NCBI GenBank assembly: GCA_016722945.1
Contig: JAEQMT010000010.1
Coordinates: forward strand, 327,765-391,764
Reading direction: 5' to 3'
DNA: 64,000 nucleotides
From: Desulfofustis sp. PB-SRB1
GTDB taxonomy: Bacteria > Desulfobacterota > Desulfobulbia > Desulfobulbales > Desulfocapsaceae
In this document: positions 44,819 to 57,247 of the stretch, piece after piece
Layout of the letters: every line of letters starts with the position of its first letter
How positions within the stretch are numbered: position 1 is the stretch's first letter
Position numbers and translations under genes: made by a program
Notes under the pieces: model-generated
Databases searched by the model: none
Seen by the model: only the letters and a program-made list of their open reading frames with translations
What the model was told of the DNA's origin: nothing

Positions 44819-45597
44819 TGCGATTTTCGGTACTAGGCAGCGGCAGCAGGGGCAACGCTGTTTTCGTTGAGGCCTCAGAAACGGCGATTCTCATCGACTG
44901 CGGATTTTCCGGACGCGAAATCAGCACGCGGCTGGAGTCAATCGGGGTGGGTATGGATGATTTGAACGCCATCTTCATCACCCATGAGCATCACGACCAC
45001 ACAAGCGGCGCGGGAGTTGTTTCCAGGCGCTGCCGCATACCGCTGTTTGCCAACCGGCAGACGTATGAAAACGGCGGCAAACGACTGCATAAGCCCCATC
45101 AACACCGTGAGTTCGACACGGGTGAGTCGATTGTCTTTCGTGATCTTATCATCCGGTCGTTTTCCCTCTCCCACGACGCCGCCGATCCGGTCGGGTTTAT
45201 CGTCAGTGACGGGGATGTTTCCCTGGGTGTCTGTACCGATACCGGTATCATTTCCAAGCTTCTCAGACATCGATTACAGGGTTGCAACGGACTTATCCTG
45301 GAGTTCAATCACGATGCCTGGATGCTGCAAAGCGGCCCCTATCCCTTACCCCTCAAGCAGCGTGTGCAATCCAACAAGGGCCATCTCGCCAACCATGACG
45401 GCGCCGCCCTGCTTGAGGCGTTGATCCATCCGCGCTTGCAATGGGTGGTTGCTGCTCATCTGAGCGAAATCAACAATGTGCCGGATCTCGTTCATCAGGC
45501 AACCAGTTCCATTTTTAATGATCAGTCCACCGATGCACGATTCCGCGTATCCGGGCAACACCGCCCCACCGAAGTATTCAAGCTGCATAACCGCTGA
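44818..45597 (+). CDS. MBL-fold metallohydrolase, YycJ-like
   Basis: 259 residues from the ATG at 44818. The metallo-beta-lactamase motif HEHHDH lies near residue 55, preceded by the typical VLGSGSRGNAVFVEASETAILIDCGFSGREI start. Later ligands are in SLSHDAADPVGF, CTDTG and AAHLSEINN. YycJ-type proteins are putative 5'-3' exonucleases in mismatch repair of bacteria without MutH, which would suit a gene coupled to dut, but nuclease activity here is an inference. Confidence 0.88.
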   Translation: MRFSVLGSGSRGNAVFVEASETAILIDCGFSGREISTRLESIGVGMDDLNAIFITHEHHDHTSGAGVVSRRCRIPLFANRQTYENGGKRLHKPHQHREFDTGESIVFRDLIIRSFSLSHDAADPVGFIVSDGDVSLGVCTDTGIISKLLRHRLQGCNGLILEFNHDAWMLQSGPYPLPLKQRVQSNKGHLANHDGAALLEALIHPRLQWVVAAHLSEINNVPDLVHQATSSIFNDQSTDARFRVSGQHRPTEVFKLHNR

Positions 45598-45690
45598 CAA
45601 GATCTCCCGCCACGGTTGGAAATATCATCTTTTCCCGTTAAAAGGACGCAGAGATACTGGGCACGCAGGTCAGCACGGTACGGCTGTCTC

Positions 45691-45710
45691 ATTTCCCTAT
45701 AAATGGGAAT
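45691..45710. repeat. degenerate dRS3-like palindrome
   Basis: ATTTCCCTATAAATGGGAAT matches the ATTCCC-N8-GGGAAT pattern with one change, without the rest of the longer repeat. Confidence 0.4.
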
Positions 45711-45760
45711 GACATAGTCGCCGGTGGACCTTATTAGGTAATGATCCCGAGGGAAAAGAA

Positions 45761-46981
45761 ATGAATCGTTTCATGATTATCGGCGGCATGGCCTGCTTCT
45801 GGCTGTTTTCACCCGAAGCGCTCACTCTCATCGGCGTCAGCGCCGGAAGAGGCGGGTATCCAGCTGTATCAGCTCTGCTCGGATGGGCGCTGATTATCGC
45901 CGTTTGCCTCTCTATCATGATTGTTTCGTCGCGGCTGACAGCGGCTGGCGGGGAAGACTCCGCCCGCTTCGGCGGCGATGAACCATTGCTGCTCAGGGTG
46001 CTGCTCTTTGCCGGCATCTACGGGGTTGCCATCCTTGCCTCCACCGGTATGCTGGTGACGGCCGGGTTCGCCTTCAACGAGATATTTTTCTACCGCTTTC
46101 CCAACTTCGGCTTTGCCGCGTTACTCCTCGCCGGTGTCGTTGTCCTGCAGCAGGCCCCGGAACGTGTTCAATATACCATTCAGTATGGGGCGACCTTGAC
46201 CTGCGCCGTTGGCCTTCTGGTGCTCATCGTGGCGGGGCTGATGGGAGAGAGACCGGTTGTGGAATCACTACAATCACCAAGCGGTCACGGAGTGCTCCCC
46301 TATGTAACTCTGGTGGTGGTATTTCTGGGTTTTGACCAGATTGCTCTTCAGGCCGATGAAGGTGATGGCTGGCCGCTTCTTCCCGTAGTGTTTGTGGGTT
46401 CCTCGATGGTGCTGGCGATATGGCTGCTGCTCAGCATTCAGTATGTGAATGGTGATCGCCTTGCCGACACCTCAATCCCCTATCTGATTGCCGCCCGTGA
46501 AATACTGGGGCAAGCGGGCCGCTCCATAATGGGGTTAATCGTCATCGCCGGCGCCTTCGCCGCCTCGCACGGCCTTTTTATTCTTGCCCGCATCTATCTT
46601 ACCGCTCGTTATCCATCCGCCCGCACGCCAGTGGTGCGGCGGGGTCTGCCATTGATTATGGGGTTGGTCATCGGCCTGTTGATGGTAATGGGGCTGGCCG
46701 GCTCCGCCAACCTGGAGACATATATTCGAGGCACCGTGCTGATCTGGCTGAGCGGTGCGGCGCTGGCTGTTTTGAGAGGCGTGAGATTTCTTAATCAAGG
46801 TAATAGTGTCATCTCAGTTGCCGGCTACGTGGGAGGGGCGCTGATGCTGGTAAGCGTGTTTTTTATGGCGTCTCACGCCTCTCAGCCATATCTTATGGGG
46901 TACTATATGGGTGTGATTTTTGTTATTTCAGCTTTCTGCATAACCTTACTTGAGGTGATGCGGAAAAAAAGCGCATCATGA
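45761..46981 (+). CDS. multi-pass membrane protein, amino acid permease-like
   Basis: 406 residues with about eleven hydrophobic segments and few charged loops. Segments such as GVSAGRGGYPAVSALLGWALI, TAGFAFNEIFFYRFPNFGFAA and AREILGQAGRSIMGLIVIAGAFAASHGLFILARIYL recall APC-superfamily carriers (the last resembles the sixth to eighth helices), but the family consensus motifs are weak. It has an AGGGAAAAG ribosome binding site and is followed 41 bases later by the rhodanese gene. Transport function is an inference; substrate unknown. Confidence 0.65.
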   Translation: MNRFMIIGGMACFWLFSPEALTLIGVSAGRGGYPAVSALLGWALIIAVCLSIMIVSSRLTAAGGEDSARFGGDEPLLLRVLLFAGIYGVAILASTGMLVTAGFAFNEIFFYRFPNFGFAALLLAGVVVLQQAPERVQYTIQYGATLTCAVGLLVLIVAGLMGERPVVESLQSPSGHGVLPYVTLVVVFLGFDQIALQADEGDGWPLLPVVFVGSSMVLAIWLLLSIQYVNGDRLADTSIPYLIAAREILGQAGRSIMGLIVIAGAFAASHGLFILARIYLTARYPSARTPVVRRGLPLIMGLVIGLLMVMGLAGSANLETYIRGTVLIWLSGAALAVLRGVRFLNQGNSVISVAGYVGGALMLVSVFFMASHASQPYLMGYYMGVIFVISAFCITLLEVMRKKSAS

Positions 46982-47022
46982 GATGCATACCATACATGAA
47001 AACCCCTAACTAGAGGAAAACC

Positions 47023-47418
47023 ATGAGAATACTGATAGCGGCACTTATTATAGCGTTGGTGGGAGCGTTTTCGCCGGTTCTGGCGGCCGATGTTCCCATT
47101 ATGACCAAAGAGGAACTAAACGAAAAATTGGATTCCGCCGATGTGGTGGTAATCGATGTTCGCCAGGGGCGGGACTGGAGCTCCAGCGAATTTAAAATCA
47201 AAGGAGCGGTACGGGGTGAGAACGGTGGAATCGATTCACTGATGGCATCACTTGACAAGAGCAAGACCTATGTTCTCTATTGTTCCTGACCCAATGAGTA
47301 TACCAGTGCCCGGGCGGCACAAAAGATGATGGATCAGGGTTTTACCAATGTGTATGCCCTGCAGGGTGGCTGGCGCGACTGGTTTCGAGCCCAATACCCC
47401 ACTGAAGAGAAATCGTAA
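47023..47418 (+). CDS. periplasmic rhodanese-domain protein, probable selenoprotein (in-frame TGA at 47287)
   Basis: 131 residues if TGA is read as selenocysteine (Sec89). The signal peptide (RILIAALIIALVGAFSPVLAAD) is followed by a rhodanese domain with DVVVIDVRQGRDW, then the active-site region YVLYCS-U-PNEYTSARAAQKMM, and the C-terminal rhodanese strand GFTNVYALQGGWRDWF. Reading stops at 47289 otherwise, yet the downstream frame is fully rhodanese-like up to a TAA at 47416-47418. Relatives carry Cys at this position in YC(A/S)CPNE-type motifs. A SECIS-like hairpin starts 17 bases after the TGA. A nonsense mutation is the alternative. The domain transfers sulfane sulfur, outside the cytoplasm. 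Confidence 0.75.
47306..47320 (+). promoter_or_regulatory. candidate bacterial SECIS element
   Basis: A 5-bp stem GTGCC / GGCAC closed by the pentaloop CGGGC. The apical loop begins 22 bases after the TGA, and a G is the second loop base. This fits the bacterial rule of a short hairpin whose loop lies about 16-37 bases after UGA with a G in the first two loop positions. Confidence 0.55.
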
Positions 47419-47456
47419 CCGATGAGCTGATAACCCGTATTCTCCAAGACGTTGTT

Positions 47457-47494
47457 CACAAGAGCGGCGCCGCACCAGCGGCGCCGCTCTTGTG
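47457..47494 (+). terminator. very stable 17-bp hairpin after the rhodanese gene
   Basis: CACAAGAGCGGCGCCGC pairs perfectly with GCGGCGCCGCTCTTGTG around the loop ACCA. It is followed by CTTTGC, so the T-run is poor. It probably terminates or protects the transcript. Confidence 0.65.
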
Positions 47495-47642
47495 CTTTGC
47501 GGGGTAGTGATAGTATACTATGATCAAAACGGGCCCGGAGCATCGCCAGGATGTTTCGCTTCATCTGCCCCTCTTATTACATTCCCGGCCAGCAGGACTG
47601 GGACGCATTCTAATGATGCGGTAGCGTTGCAACGAGTCATTC

Positions 47643-48803
47643 ATGGCAGAAAAAACACTTCCTGAAAACATCGCTCCCGGCACAATCTGTGTGCACAGCG
47701 GCACCTTTCATGACGGCGTCACCGGCGGGGTCAACAGCCCCATCTTCACTTCCTCTTCCTATGAGTATCTGGATCGTGAGGATACCTGTTATCCACGCTA
47801 TTTCAACACCCCGAATCAGGAAGTGGTGGTGGCCAAACTGAGTAATCTGGAACACGCCGAGGCCGGAGTGCTGTTCAGTTCGGGAATGGCCGCAATCAGC
47901 ACCACGATACTCTCTTTTGCCGGCCGAGGCGACCACGTGGTGCTGCTGGATGAACTGTATGGCGGAACGCACGCCTTTGTCACCGACTGCTTCGATCGTC
48001 TGGGAATCGGCTACACCTTCGTAAAAACCTCGGTGGACGCGGTGGCACGGGCAATCACCGCCGAGACCAGGGTGATCGTCATCGAATCTCCCACTAATCC
48101 CTTGATGAACATCATCGATATCGAGGCGGTGGCCGGGCTCGGCATCGCCCACGGCATCGTTACCGTCATGGATAACACCTTCGCCACTCCCATCAATCAG
48201 AAACCCCTGGCCCTGGGAATCGATGTGGTGGTGCACTCCGGCACCAAATATCTGGGGGGACATAGTGATCTCTGTTGCGGGGTGGCGCTTGGTTCACGCG
48301 AACACACCCAGACAATACTCGCTATGGCCCGCCATCTGGGCGGCAGCCTCAATGGTATCACCTGCTATCTGCTGGAGCGCAGCCTGAAAACCCTGGCGCT
48401 GCGGGTTGAGCGCCACTGCCTCAATGCCCGGCGCATTGGCGCGGAACTCGCCGCCCATGATGCGGTCCGACGGGTTTATTACCCCGGCCTGCCCGGATGC
48501 AGTGGGTATGAAACGGCGCTGAAGCAGATGAAGGGGTTTGGCGGGATGCTTTCCTTTGAGTTGGCGAATGGTGGGGTAGGCCCGGATGCGTTTCTCAAGC
48601 GTCTGCGATTGGTTCGTCCAGCCGTGAGCCTGGGTGGGGTGGAAAGTCTGATCTGTGCGCCGGCGCATACCTCCCATGCGAAATTGTCTGCCACGGAACG
48701 CCACAGACTGGGCATCACTGATGGACTGTTGCGCCTCTCAGTGGGGATTGAAGAGGTTGACGATATCCTGGCCGATTTGGATCAGGCACTAAGTACCCTG
48801 TAA
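47643..48803 (+). CDS. Cys/Met metabolism PLP-dependent enzyme (cystathionine gamma-synthase/lyase type)
   Basis: 386 residues of the trans-sulfuration family. The PLP lysine is in VVHSGTKYLGGHSDLCCG, the cofactor-binding Asp in VTVMDNTFATPINQKPLALG, and the Tyr/Arg tetramer contacts in CYPRYFNTPNQEVV. The C-terminal SLGGVESLICAPAHTSHAKLSATERHRLGITDGLLRLSVGIEEVDDIL matches MetB, MetC and gamma-lyases alike, so the reaction (synthase, beta-lyase or gamma-lyase) cannot be fixed. Some members release H2S from cysteine, which may matter next to a rhodanese gene. Monocistronic, after the 47457 hairpin. Confidence 0.88.
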   Translation: MAEKTLPENIAPGTICVHSGTFHDGVTGGVNSPIFTSSSYEYLDREDTCYPRYFNTPNQEVVVAKLSNLEHAEAGVLFSSGMAAISTTILSFAGRGDHVVLLDELYGGTHAFVTDCFDRLGIGYTFVKTSVDAVARAITAETRVIVIESPTNPLMNIIDIEAVAGLGIAHGIVTVMDNTFATPINQKPLALGIDVVVHSGTKYLGGHSDLCCGVALGSREHTQTILAMARHLGGSLNGITCYLLERSLKTLALRVERHCLNARRIGAELAAHDAVRRVYYPGLPGCSGYETALKQMKGFGGMLSFELANGGVGPDAFLKRLRLVRPAVSLGGVESLICAPAHTSHAKLSATERHRLGITDGLLRLSVGIEEVDDILADLDQALSTL

Positions 48804-56086: not shown

Positions 56087-57247
56087 TCAGGCTGCCTGCT
56101 GCGCCGCGTAGGCCGACGCGGCGCATTCGTTTTTGCCGAGATCGAGGATTTCCGCCTCTTCGTCGTCAACCTGTTCGATATTGGCGTTCACCCGTCTGAT
56201 CTTGGCGTATTCAGGGGGCTGCTCGCGCATGTTCTGTTTGATGAAGGCGAGAAAATCCTCACCATTGTCGATCTGATAGATACTCTGATTGGCGCGCCGT
56301 ATATTTTCCAGCGAGTCGGCGAAACTGAGCTGCTCATTGGCCTCGTCCCAGCCGATAAAATGGCCCGGCAGGATGATGATGGAGCCATCGTAGTCGCCGA
56401 TGTTTCTGATCGTCTCAAACAGGGTGTCGGACCATTCATCAACCATGCCGCCGAGATCCGGCCGGCCGATGGATTTAATGAAGATGATGTCGCCGGTGAT
56501 CAGATAACGCTCATCGATCAGATACATGGTTGAGCCGGGGGTATGACCCGGGGAACAGACAACCGTAACCTGTGGAGCGCCATCGCCAAAACCGATATCC
56601 TGCTTGTCGGCTACGGCAACGTACTCGAATTGGGCCCCGGAAAAGTCGTCTTTATTGGCGTACAATGAGGCGCCGGTCTGCTCGGCGATCATCCTGCTGC
56701 CGGCGATATAGTCGGCCTGCAGATGGGTTTCCGCCGTGGCTGTAATGGTGCACCCCTGGTCACGGGCAAAATCCAGGTAAAAATCGAGGTTTCGGGTAGG
56801 GTCAAAGAGCATCATCGAATTCTGGTAGATCAGACCGTAACTGCACGAGCCCTTACCCGGTCTGATGAACTGGTAGAGCTGGTAGCCGTCGTCGCCATGC
56901 AGCAGGGTCGGCACCAGCAGGTTACCCCACGATTTGATACCGCCGGCCAGGTAGCCCACATCGGTGAACCCGTGCTTCTCCAGAATTTCGGCGACAAACT
57001 GGGCGGAGCCCTCCTTGGCGCAGACAATTCGAATGGCCTGATCTTTGGCCGGCATCCTGGCAATGCATTGGTCTTCGATCTCCATGAAATCGAAGTAGGA
57101 GACGTTCAGCATCGTGATCGGGTGCGGTCCTTCCACCTTGAAACGGCCGAAATCCTTGCTGTTTCGCACGTCCAGCAGGACAAAATCTGCCTGGTCGGCC
57201 ACCCATCGGTACAATTTATCCGCCTCGAACTTAAAAATAGCCATCAT
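56087..57247 (-). CDS. rhodanese - persulfide dioxygenase-like (ETHE1 type) fusion
   Basis: 386 residues from the first of tandem ATGs at 57247/57244 (TGGAGAAAC upstream). The rhodanese-like domain is residues 1-115, with Cys76 in IRIVCAKEGS. The MBL domain follows: ETHLQADYIAG places His175 where the canonical THxHxDH has its first His, with Gln177 and Tyr180 replacing the second and last His. His235 (SPGHTPGST) and Asp253 (TGDI) are retained. ETHE1 enzymes use just the His-His-Asp triad for mononuclear iron, so persulfide dioxygenase activity is possible. A C-terminal 100-residue helical tail is extra. Upstream neighbour: 160-residue protein; downstream: methyltransferase. Confidence 0.82.
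   Translation of the reverse strand: MMAIFKFEADKLYRWVADQADFVLLDVRNSKDFGRFKVEGPHPITMLNVSYFDFMEIEDQCIARMPAKDQAIRIVCAKEGSAQFVAEILEKHGFTDVGYLAGGIKSWGNLLVPTLLHGDDGYQLYQFIRPGKGSCSYGLIYQNSMMLFDPTRNLDFYLDFARDQGCTITATAETHLQADYIAGSRMIAEQTGASLYANKDDFSGAQFEYVAVADKQDIGFGDGAPQVTVVCSPGHTPGSTMYLIDERYLITGDIIFIKSIGRPDLGGMVDEWSDTLFETIRNIGDYDGSIIILPGHFIGWDEANEQLSFADSLENIRRANQSIYQIDNGEDFLAFIKQNMREQPPEYAKIRRVNANIEQVDDEEAEILDLGKNECAASAYAAQQAA

Follow-up and report, generated by a model that had tools for sequence, protein, structure and literature searches.

A putative selenocysteine-containing rhodanese and its neighboring APC-fold permease in Desulfofustis sp. PB-SRB1

Does the single in-frame TGA in a rhodanese reading frame of Desulfofustis sp. 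PB-SRB1 end the protein, or is it read as selenocysteine (Sec), and what might the resulting protein do? We addressed these questions by computational analysis of the window, that is, the whole stretch of 64,000 nucleotides in which the gene lies (G000:C1:327765-391764, G000 being the source genome). The translated frame reads MRILIAAL...YVLYCS-U-PNEYTSARAAQ...VYALQGGWRDWFRAQYPTEEKS: an N-terminal part (MRILIAALIIALVGAFSPVLAADVPIM... to YVLYCS) is followed by the TGA and then by PNEYTSARAAQKMMDQGFTNVYALQGGWRDWFRAQYPTEEKS, before a TAA (47416-47418). An earlier note on this DNA had pointed out that the frame runs into the TGA and then continues as rhodanese, which our re-translation confirmed, and that an ordinary gene call would stop at 88 residues, which is the length of the ORF call; reading the TGA as Sec89 extends the protein to 131 residues.

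The features of the locus are collected in Table 1. The rhodanese is probably exported, judging by eye from a putative signal peptide, and an inverted repeat downstream of the gene may mark the end of the transcription unit; a terminator scan made no call at this repeat. Another rhodanese domain in the window (56924-57223, minus strand) lies inside a 396-aa open frame.

Table 1. Features of the rhodanese locus, in window coordinates
Feature	Position	Strand	Basis
Divergent membrane permease, predicted APC fold, 406 aa, first gene of the pair	45761..46981	+	AlphaFold2 model, VIA-align, neighbor conservation
Predicted Sec rhodanese, 131 aa, Sec89, NF041203 family	47023..47418	+	translation, profile matches
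Putative export signal peptide, residues 1-22 (...SPVLAA)	47023..47088	+	by-eye reading of translation
Cys87 codon TGT; TGA in Sec-x-Sec relatives	47281..47283	+	sequence, relatives' rows
TGA codon, very probably read as Sec89	47287..47289	+	sequence, relatives, SECIS pairing
Predicted SECIS hairpin GTGCC/CGGGC/GGCAC, inside coding region	47306..47320	+	pairing conservation, folding
Perfect inverted repeat, 17 bp, 4-nt loop, 3' of rhodanese	47457..47494	+	repeat search; weak T-tract

Decoding of the in-frame TGA

By its profile matches, the rhodanese is a member of an already catalogued selenoprotein family. Scored with C in place of U, the protein matched NCBIfam NF041203 (rhodanese_LYCAU, '(seleno)protein') at 178.5 bits (cut-off 115; residues 10-130 on profile positions 5-126 of 126) and Pfam Rhodanese PF00581 at 50 bits (gathering cut-off 22.2), and Foldseek matched it to solved rhodaneses. 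The family and the window protein have in common the LYC-x-U motif and a single rhodanese domain, whereas the middle residue of the motif is Ala in the family and Ser in the window protein (LYCSU); the Cys-x-Sec relatives that we read have YC[AST]U. In the available part of a 2026 review (PMC13188914), NF041203 appears under the name 'Rhodanese-like domain-containing protein form 3', with CxU, one Sec and the example TKB26178.1, and the available part of PMC9312934 enters it as the CxU form of COG0607. A different selenium-containing rhodanese, the rhodanese/DsbD fusion-like selenoprotein TsoB (NF045694), has a fused DsbD-like part, going by its name, and a UxxxxU motif in the available part of PMC13188914; the window protein scores 29.3 bits against it, far below the cut-off of 805.

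The TGA is a regular feature of this family. Copies over the NF041203 cut-off were found in 20 of the 58 genomes in a set of relatives (the source genome included) and in 61 of the 395 genomes in a set from the phylum, with named loci that include Desulfobacula, Desulfocapsa and Desulfogranum. Among cultivated relatives, Desulfogranum mediterraneum DSM 13871 has the copy in L087. All 21 rows from the relatives carry one TGA. At least one TGA is present in 75 of the 84 phylum rows (one in 64, of which one also has a TAA, and two in 11); eight rows have no stop and one has a TAA only. Because the TGA is common to many genomes, a read error does not explain it. We read 73 rows and, after dropping two repeats and one outsider, retained 70: Cys-x-Sec 50, Sec-x-Sec 8, Cys-x-Cys 3, Cys-x-Ser 7, Ser-x-Ser 1 and Cys-x-Ala 1. 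Most were the best-scoring rows, together with picks that had two or no TGA, and their proportions are no census.

Downstream of the TGA, at the 17th to 31st base, is the hairpin GTGCC-CGGGC-GGCAC, positioned as the earlier note had stated (5 bp, CGGGC loop, 17 bases past the TGA). Its minimum free energy (MFE) is -7.9 kcal/mol in 25- and 42-nt pieces and -6.4 as the bare 15 nt. Our yardstick was the set of bacterial SECIS constraints printed in the available part of PMC13188914. The hairpin agrees with them: its loop is 5 nt and its stem 5 bp, loop position 2 is a G followed by another G, the UGA-to-loop spacing is 21 nt and the MFE with flanks is below the limit of -7.5, which bears out the earlier claim that the loop falls within the bacterial SECIS window; the bases at N1 and N2 are both C and do not form the optional loop-closing pair. 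Compared with dinucleotide shuffles, the lone hairpin is not significant (z -0.25 to -1.28; -0.48 for 59 nt), and single-sequence folding was left out as evidence for this reason. Rfam gave no match at the gathering threshold in window positions 45000-48000.

Conservation of hairpin pairing across the family, as judged from the aligned sequences, gives the strongest support for reading the TGA as Sec. In the 70 rows, we scored pairs at fixed positions, between bases 17-21 and 27-31 after the TGA, against a control that redraws synonymous codons and preserves each protein sequence. The full set of five pairs is present in 48 of the 50 Cys-x-Sec copies and in each of the 8 Sec-x-Sec copies (56 of the 58 TGA-bearing rows), whereas the expectation from random synonymous codons is 1.85 of 50 (at most 8 in any of 400 draws) and 0.36 of 8, respectively. 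Counted singly, 288 of 290 cells are paired, and the number falls to 62-174 when the partner is shifted by 1 to 3 bases; these rows are related, and the paired cells are not independent events. Bases are exchanged within the pairs: pair 18-30 is T-A in 46, C-G in 10, T-G in 1 and C-A in 1, and pair 17-31 is G-C in 56 and C-G in 2. The G at loop position 2 is present in 58 of 58 TGA-bearing rows, and of the 57 copies with serine in the stem, 56 use an AGY codon, whereas AGY accounts for 153 of the 398 serine codons further upstream in these genes. The two incomplete TGA-bearing copies (L039 and L077) each miss one of the five pairs, and four further TGA copies (L153, L154, L155 and L157) keep all five. 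We adopted the fixed-position test in place of a generic best-hairpin search, which stepped lengths by two and therefore passed over the 15-nt hairpin in the window gene; with that search, only 10 of the 50 Cys-x-Sec rows had reached 0.05 against synonymous controls.

The hairpin is complete in only 2 of the 12 rows with Cys, Ser or Ala at the Sec position, L084 (Cys-x-Cys) and L090 (Cys-x-Ser), which may be recent conversions that retain a fossil SECIS. Cys-x-Ser or Ser-x-Ser copies that do not have the full hairpin are found in G351 (L094, L095, L099), G268 (L093) and G423 (L091, L092). G351 and G268 also have Sec copies, and G423 has none over the cut-off.

The source genome has the machinery to make and insert Sec. 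Profile searches found selA (611.5 bits), selB (371.6 bits) and selD (361.8 bits), the last of which itself has an in-frame TGA, as part of a CGU motif; tRNA-Sec scored 71.4 bits, above the gathering score, and was called tRNA-SeC with anticodon tca by ARAGORN. Thus all four genes that the earlier note had proposed to look for (selA, selB, selC and selD) are present. The selD gene (G000:C1:254885-255808, L051) is itself a selenoprotein gene by its CGU motif. A selB match occurs in 60 of the 61 phylum genomes with an over-cut-off NF041203 copy (counted from lists), the exception being G227, in which none was found. This co-occurrence is uninformative as a test because 353 of the 395 phylum genomes have a selB match overall.

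We conclude from these comparisons that the rhodanese is very probably a selenoprotein in which Sec89 is inserted by the standard bacterial UGA/SECIS/SelB route, as the earlier note had proposed; its homologues carry TGA (58 rows) or Cys (L084, L088, L089) at the Sec column. This degree of confidence applies to the identity of the selenoprotein, and not to the redox relay or the permease role considered below. That the TGA is a true stop, leaving an 88-aa truncated protein or a decaying pseudogene, is hardly credible: the ordinary ORF call does end there and the hairpin taken alone is unexceptional, but the frame 3' of the TGA is conserved in the 58 TGA-bearing rows read, synonymous codon choice keeps the hairpin with exchanges on both sides, and the Sec machinery is present in the genome.

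Active site, double-Sec forms and cytochrome fusions

Two residues of the window protein, Cys87 and Sec89, are candidates for the catalytic position. In known rhodaneses, the catalytic Cys directly follows a strand. A predicted model of the window protein (58 sequences, pLDDT 89.3) has a strand at 82-86, a loop at 87-92 and a helix at 93-104, and it places Cys87 directly after the strand. In phmmer and profile alignments, residue 89 falls on the Cys of 6mxv (both domains), GlpE and 1yt8 domain 2, and residue 87 falls on the Cys of 1qxn, each of which we take to be catalytic. Counted on the alignments, residue 89 and the GG motif are 26 residues apart, a spacing shared by the Cys of GlpE and that of 6mxv. 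The earlier note had placed Sec next to the catalytic Cys; the position of Cys87 after the strand in the model agrees with this, but most alignments favor residue 89 itself. By alignment, the family differs from GlpE in having what are probably two extra residues between the strand and the active-site helix. Among the Cys and Sec rows, the invariant columns include Y86, C87, residue 89, E92, T94 and S95. E. coli GlpE (1gmx) and the Wolinella polysulfide-sulfur transferase Sud (1qxn) have the rhodanese fold (phmmer E 2.3e-05 and 8.2e-05). Both have one catalytic Cys and are not known to contain Sec.

Some relatives appear to have Sec at both positions. The 11 Sec-x-Sec copies (L061, L067, L070, L101, L102, L103, L104, L105, L153, L154 and L157, with L101 being a shorter stretch of L158) are all of the two-TGA rows over the cut-off in the phylum set, and the hairpin is intact in every one. 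We built a tree of 64 rows, 10 of the Sec-x-Sec copies among them, with the motif masked; on it, at least seven changes of the Sec-x-Sec label are required, four of them forced by starred branches. The tree has few columns, 35 of its 61 inner branches are open, and gain and loss are indistinguishable on it. For example, L104 (Sec-x-Sec) pairs with L075 (Cys-x-Sec) with a support of 98. The Sec-x-Sec and Cys-x-Cys forms suggest that both positions matter.

In four relatives (L153, L154, L155 and L158), the rhodanese continues in frame into a C-terminal multihaem domain. These fusions are 535-539 aa long with eight CxxCH motifs each (coordinates, for example, 739-2346 in L153 and 2537-4153 in L158); three are Sec-x-Sec and one is Cys-x-Sec, and the hairpin is kept in all four. 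Multi-haem_cyto, Cytochrome_C554 and Cytochrome_C7 were matched by Pfam in the two that were scanned, L153 and L158. By taxon, three of the fusions belong to a single genus (code g39), and the fourth belongs to a different family. Other long open frames, such as those of G337 and L106, were rejected as fusions; in these the rhodanese ends at its TGA and the search had read through. Together with the Sec-x-Sec relatives, the octahaem fusions suggest that both positions have a redox role.

We postulate that Cys87 and Sec89 form a redox pair outside the cytoplasm. Polysulfide, thiosulfate or a persulfide would donate sulfane sulfur to one residue, the partner residue would resolve it as a selenenylsulfide, and an electron carrier, which in the fused relatives would be the multihaem cytochrome, would re-reduce the pair. 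We give this sulfane-sulfur relay nearly an even chance. The proposed sulfur chemistry leans on the rhodanese fold and on the established biochemistry of rhodaneses.

A selenoprotein of this kind need not be a sulfurtransferase. It could be a thiol-disulfide or peroxide reductase, or an enzyme that handles oxyanions, built on a rhodanese scaffold. The Cys-x-Sec, Sec-x-Sec and Cys-x-Cys states do resemble a dithiol or diselenol redox pair, and an octahaem cytochrome is fused in four relatives. Furthermore, a different rhodanese, ExtH, clusters with cytochromes and with ExtI, which is implicated in selenite and tellurite reduction (available part of PMC5877670). Against this, the fold and the nearest solved relatives, among them the sulfurtransferase GlpE and the polysulfide-sulfur transferase Sud of Wolinella, argue for sulfur transfer, and we regard a role other than sulfur transfer as a minority possibility to be taken seriously.

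The upstream permease and a possible sulfur pathway

The ORF directly upstream ends 41 bases 5' of the rhodanese start. It has no Pfam family at E 0.001 and no NCBIfam match, and no solved structure was matched by the permease profile at E 0.001; two of eight permease relatives matched AA_permease_2 (65.7 and 68.1 bits, cut-off 27). Because its AlphaFold2 model (pLDDT 85.7, pTM 0.87, built from 15 sequences) matches AdiC at Z 33.7 in VIA-align (rmsd 3.5, 385 residues aligned), we conclude that the modeled protein has the LeuT/APC fold; Foldseek also matches. KimA and BasC score similarly (Z 33.5 and 31.8, with 380 to 385 residues aligned for the three), although their identity to the upstream permease, like that of AdiC, is only 10 to 12%.

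The permease recurs beside the rhodanese. Clustering of neighboring ORFs placed a permease homologue directly upstream in 16 of 23 loci, one of which (L127) has a broken frame and was excluded from the permease alignment; L123 (G032), missed by clustering, adds another by profile, and L084 starts too close to the contig end to judge. A Cys/Met PLP enzyme gene at 47643 was not among the neighbor clusters common to at least three of the 23 loci. Searched with the permease profile, the 58 relatives gave 14 of 16 matches over 300 bits, and the 395 phylum genomes (four candidates scored per genome) gave 12 of 17 over 180 bits. Two genomes are in both sets, leaving 24, and in all 24 the permease lies just upstream of an over-cut-off rhodanese on the same strand, with gaps (by profile bounds) of under 200 bases except for 536 in G262. 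This count omits the match in G008 (200 bits), which is cut by a contig end. Weaker matches lie elsewhere: in G029 (124 bits) not adjacent to the rhodanese, in G103 (105 bits) about 800 bases away in the opposite orientation, and in G197 as a second copy (104 bits). Those in G284, G113 and G321, at about 50 bits, are probably ordinary permeases.

Could the permease be a chance or ancestral neighbor with no functional link? The profile was built from rhodanese neighbors, and there is no adjacent match for 7 of 21 rhodanese copies in the relatives (in G029 only about 1 kb of contig lies upstream) and no strong match directly upstream of 72 of 84 in the phylum set, where four candidates were scored per genome. 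However, 12 of the 24 genomes gave no row to the profile (G032 and G348 are among the clustered loci), and in these, 12 of 12 strong matches are just upstream on the same strand. Furthermore, the 24 genomes span 10 family codes (f1, f12, f21, f22, f24, f48, f63, f84, f103 and f118). We therefore consider a chance association quite unlikely. Taken together, the Sec codon, the SECIS, the family membership and the permease linkage are supported by the comparisons made here.

The permease might move a small sulfur-bearing amino acid or thiol that serves as the acceptor or the product of the rhodanese sulfur chemistry, a proposal that we consider rather less likely than not. More broadly, we speculate that the NF041203 selenorhodaneses are the redox part of an uncharacterised extracytoplasmic sulfur pathway that has two modes. 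In one, the rhodanese would have a dedicated but unnamed APC-fold permease as its partner, through which a sulfur-bearing amino acid or thiol would be taken up or released; in the other, a fused octahaem cytochrome would link the Sec center to an extracytoplasmic electron chain. Both residues of C-x-U would be catalytic, and because of this either could become Sec and some lineages could be Sec-x-Sec. This two-mode scheme is tentative, and we put it at somewhat below even.

The comparison adds a permease linkage, a Sec-x-Sec form and octahaem fusions to what is recorded for the family. The available part of PMC13188914 mentions none of the three for NF041203, and the term UxU does not occur in it. 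Similarly, none of the three was found among the literature matches listed, which covered titles and the starts of abstracts, with subscription papers and preprints outside. A family tabulated only as 'rhodanese form 3' would thus gain a membrane partner, a double-Sec form and electron-transfer fusions. For a family of unknown function, this yields testable predictions: co-transcription of the pair, redox coupling of residues 87 and 89, and electron exchange with the haems. The upstream permease, whose window copy fits no existing model, merits a family model of its own.

The source genome has a second TGA rhodanese near a TGA-bearing multihaem cytochrome (G000:C61, L159 8267-9643 (-) and 10727-12067 (-)). 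This rhodanese has three rhodanese stretches and the motif ...YCGGYT-U-GMTS, and the neighboring cytochrome matches NF040886 ExtKL at 451.3 bits. The arrangement resembles the Geobacter ExtH-ExtKL neighborhood described in the available part of PMC5877670.
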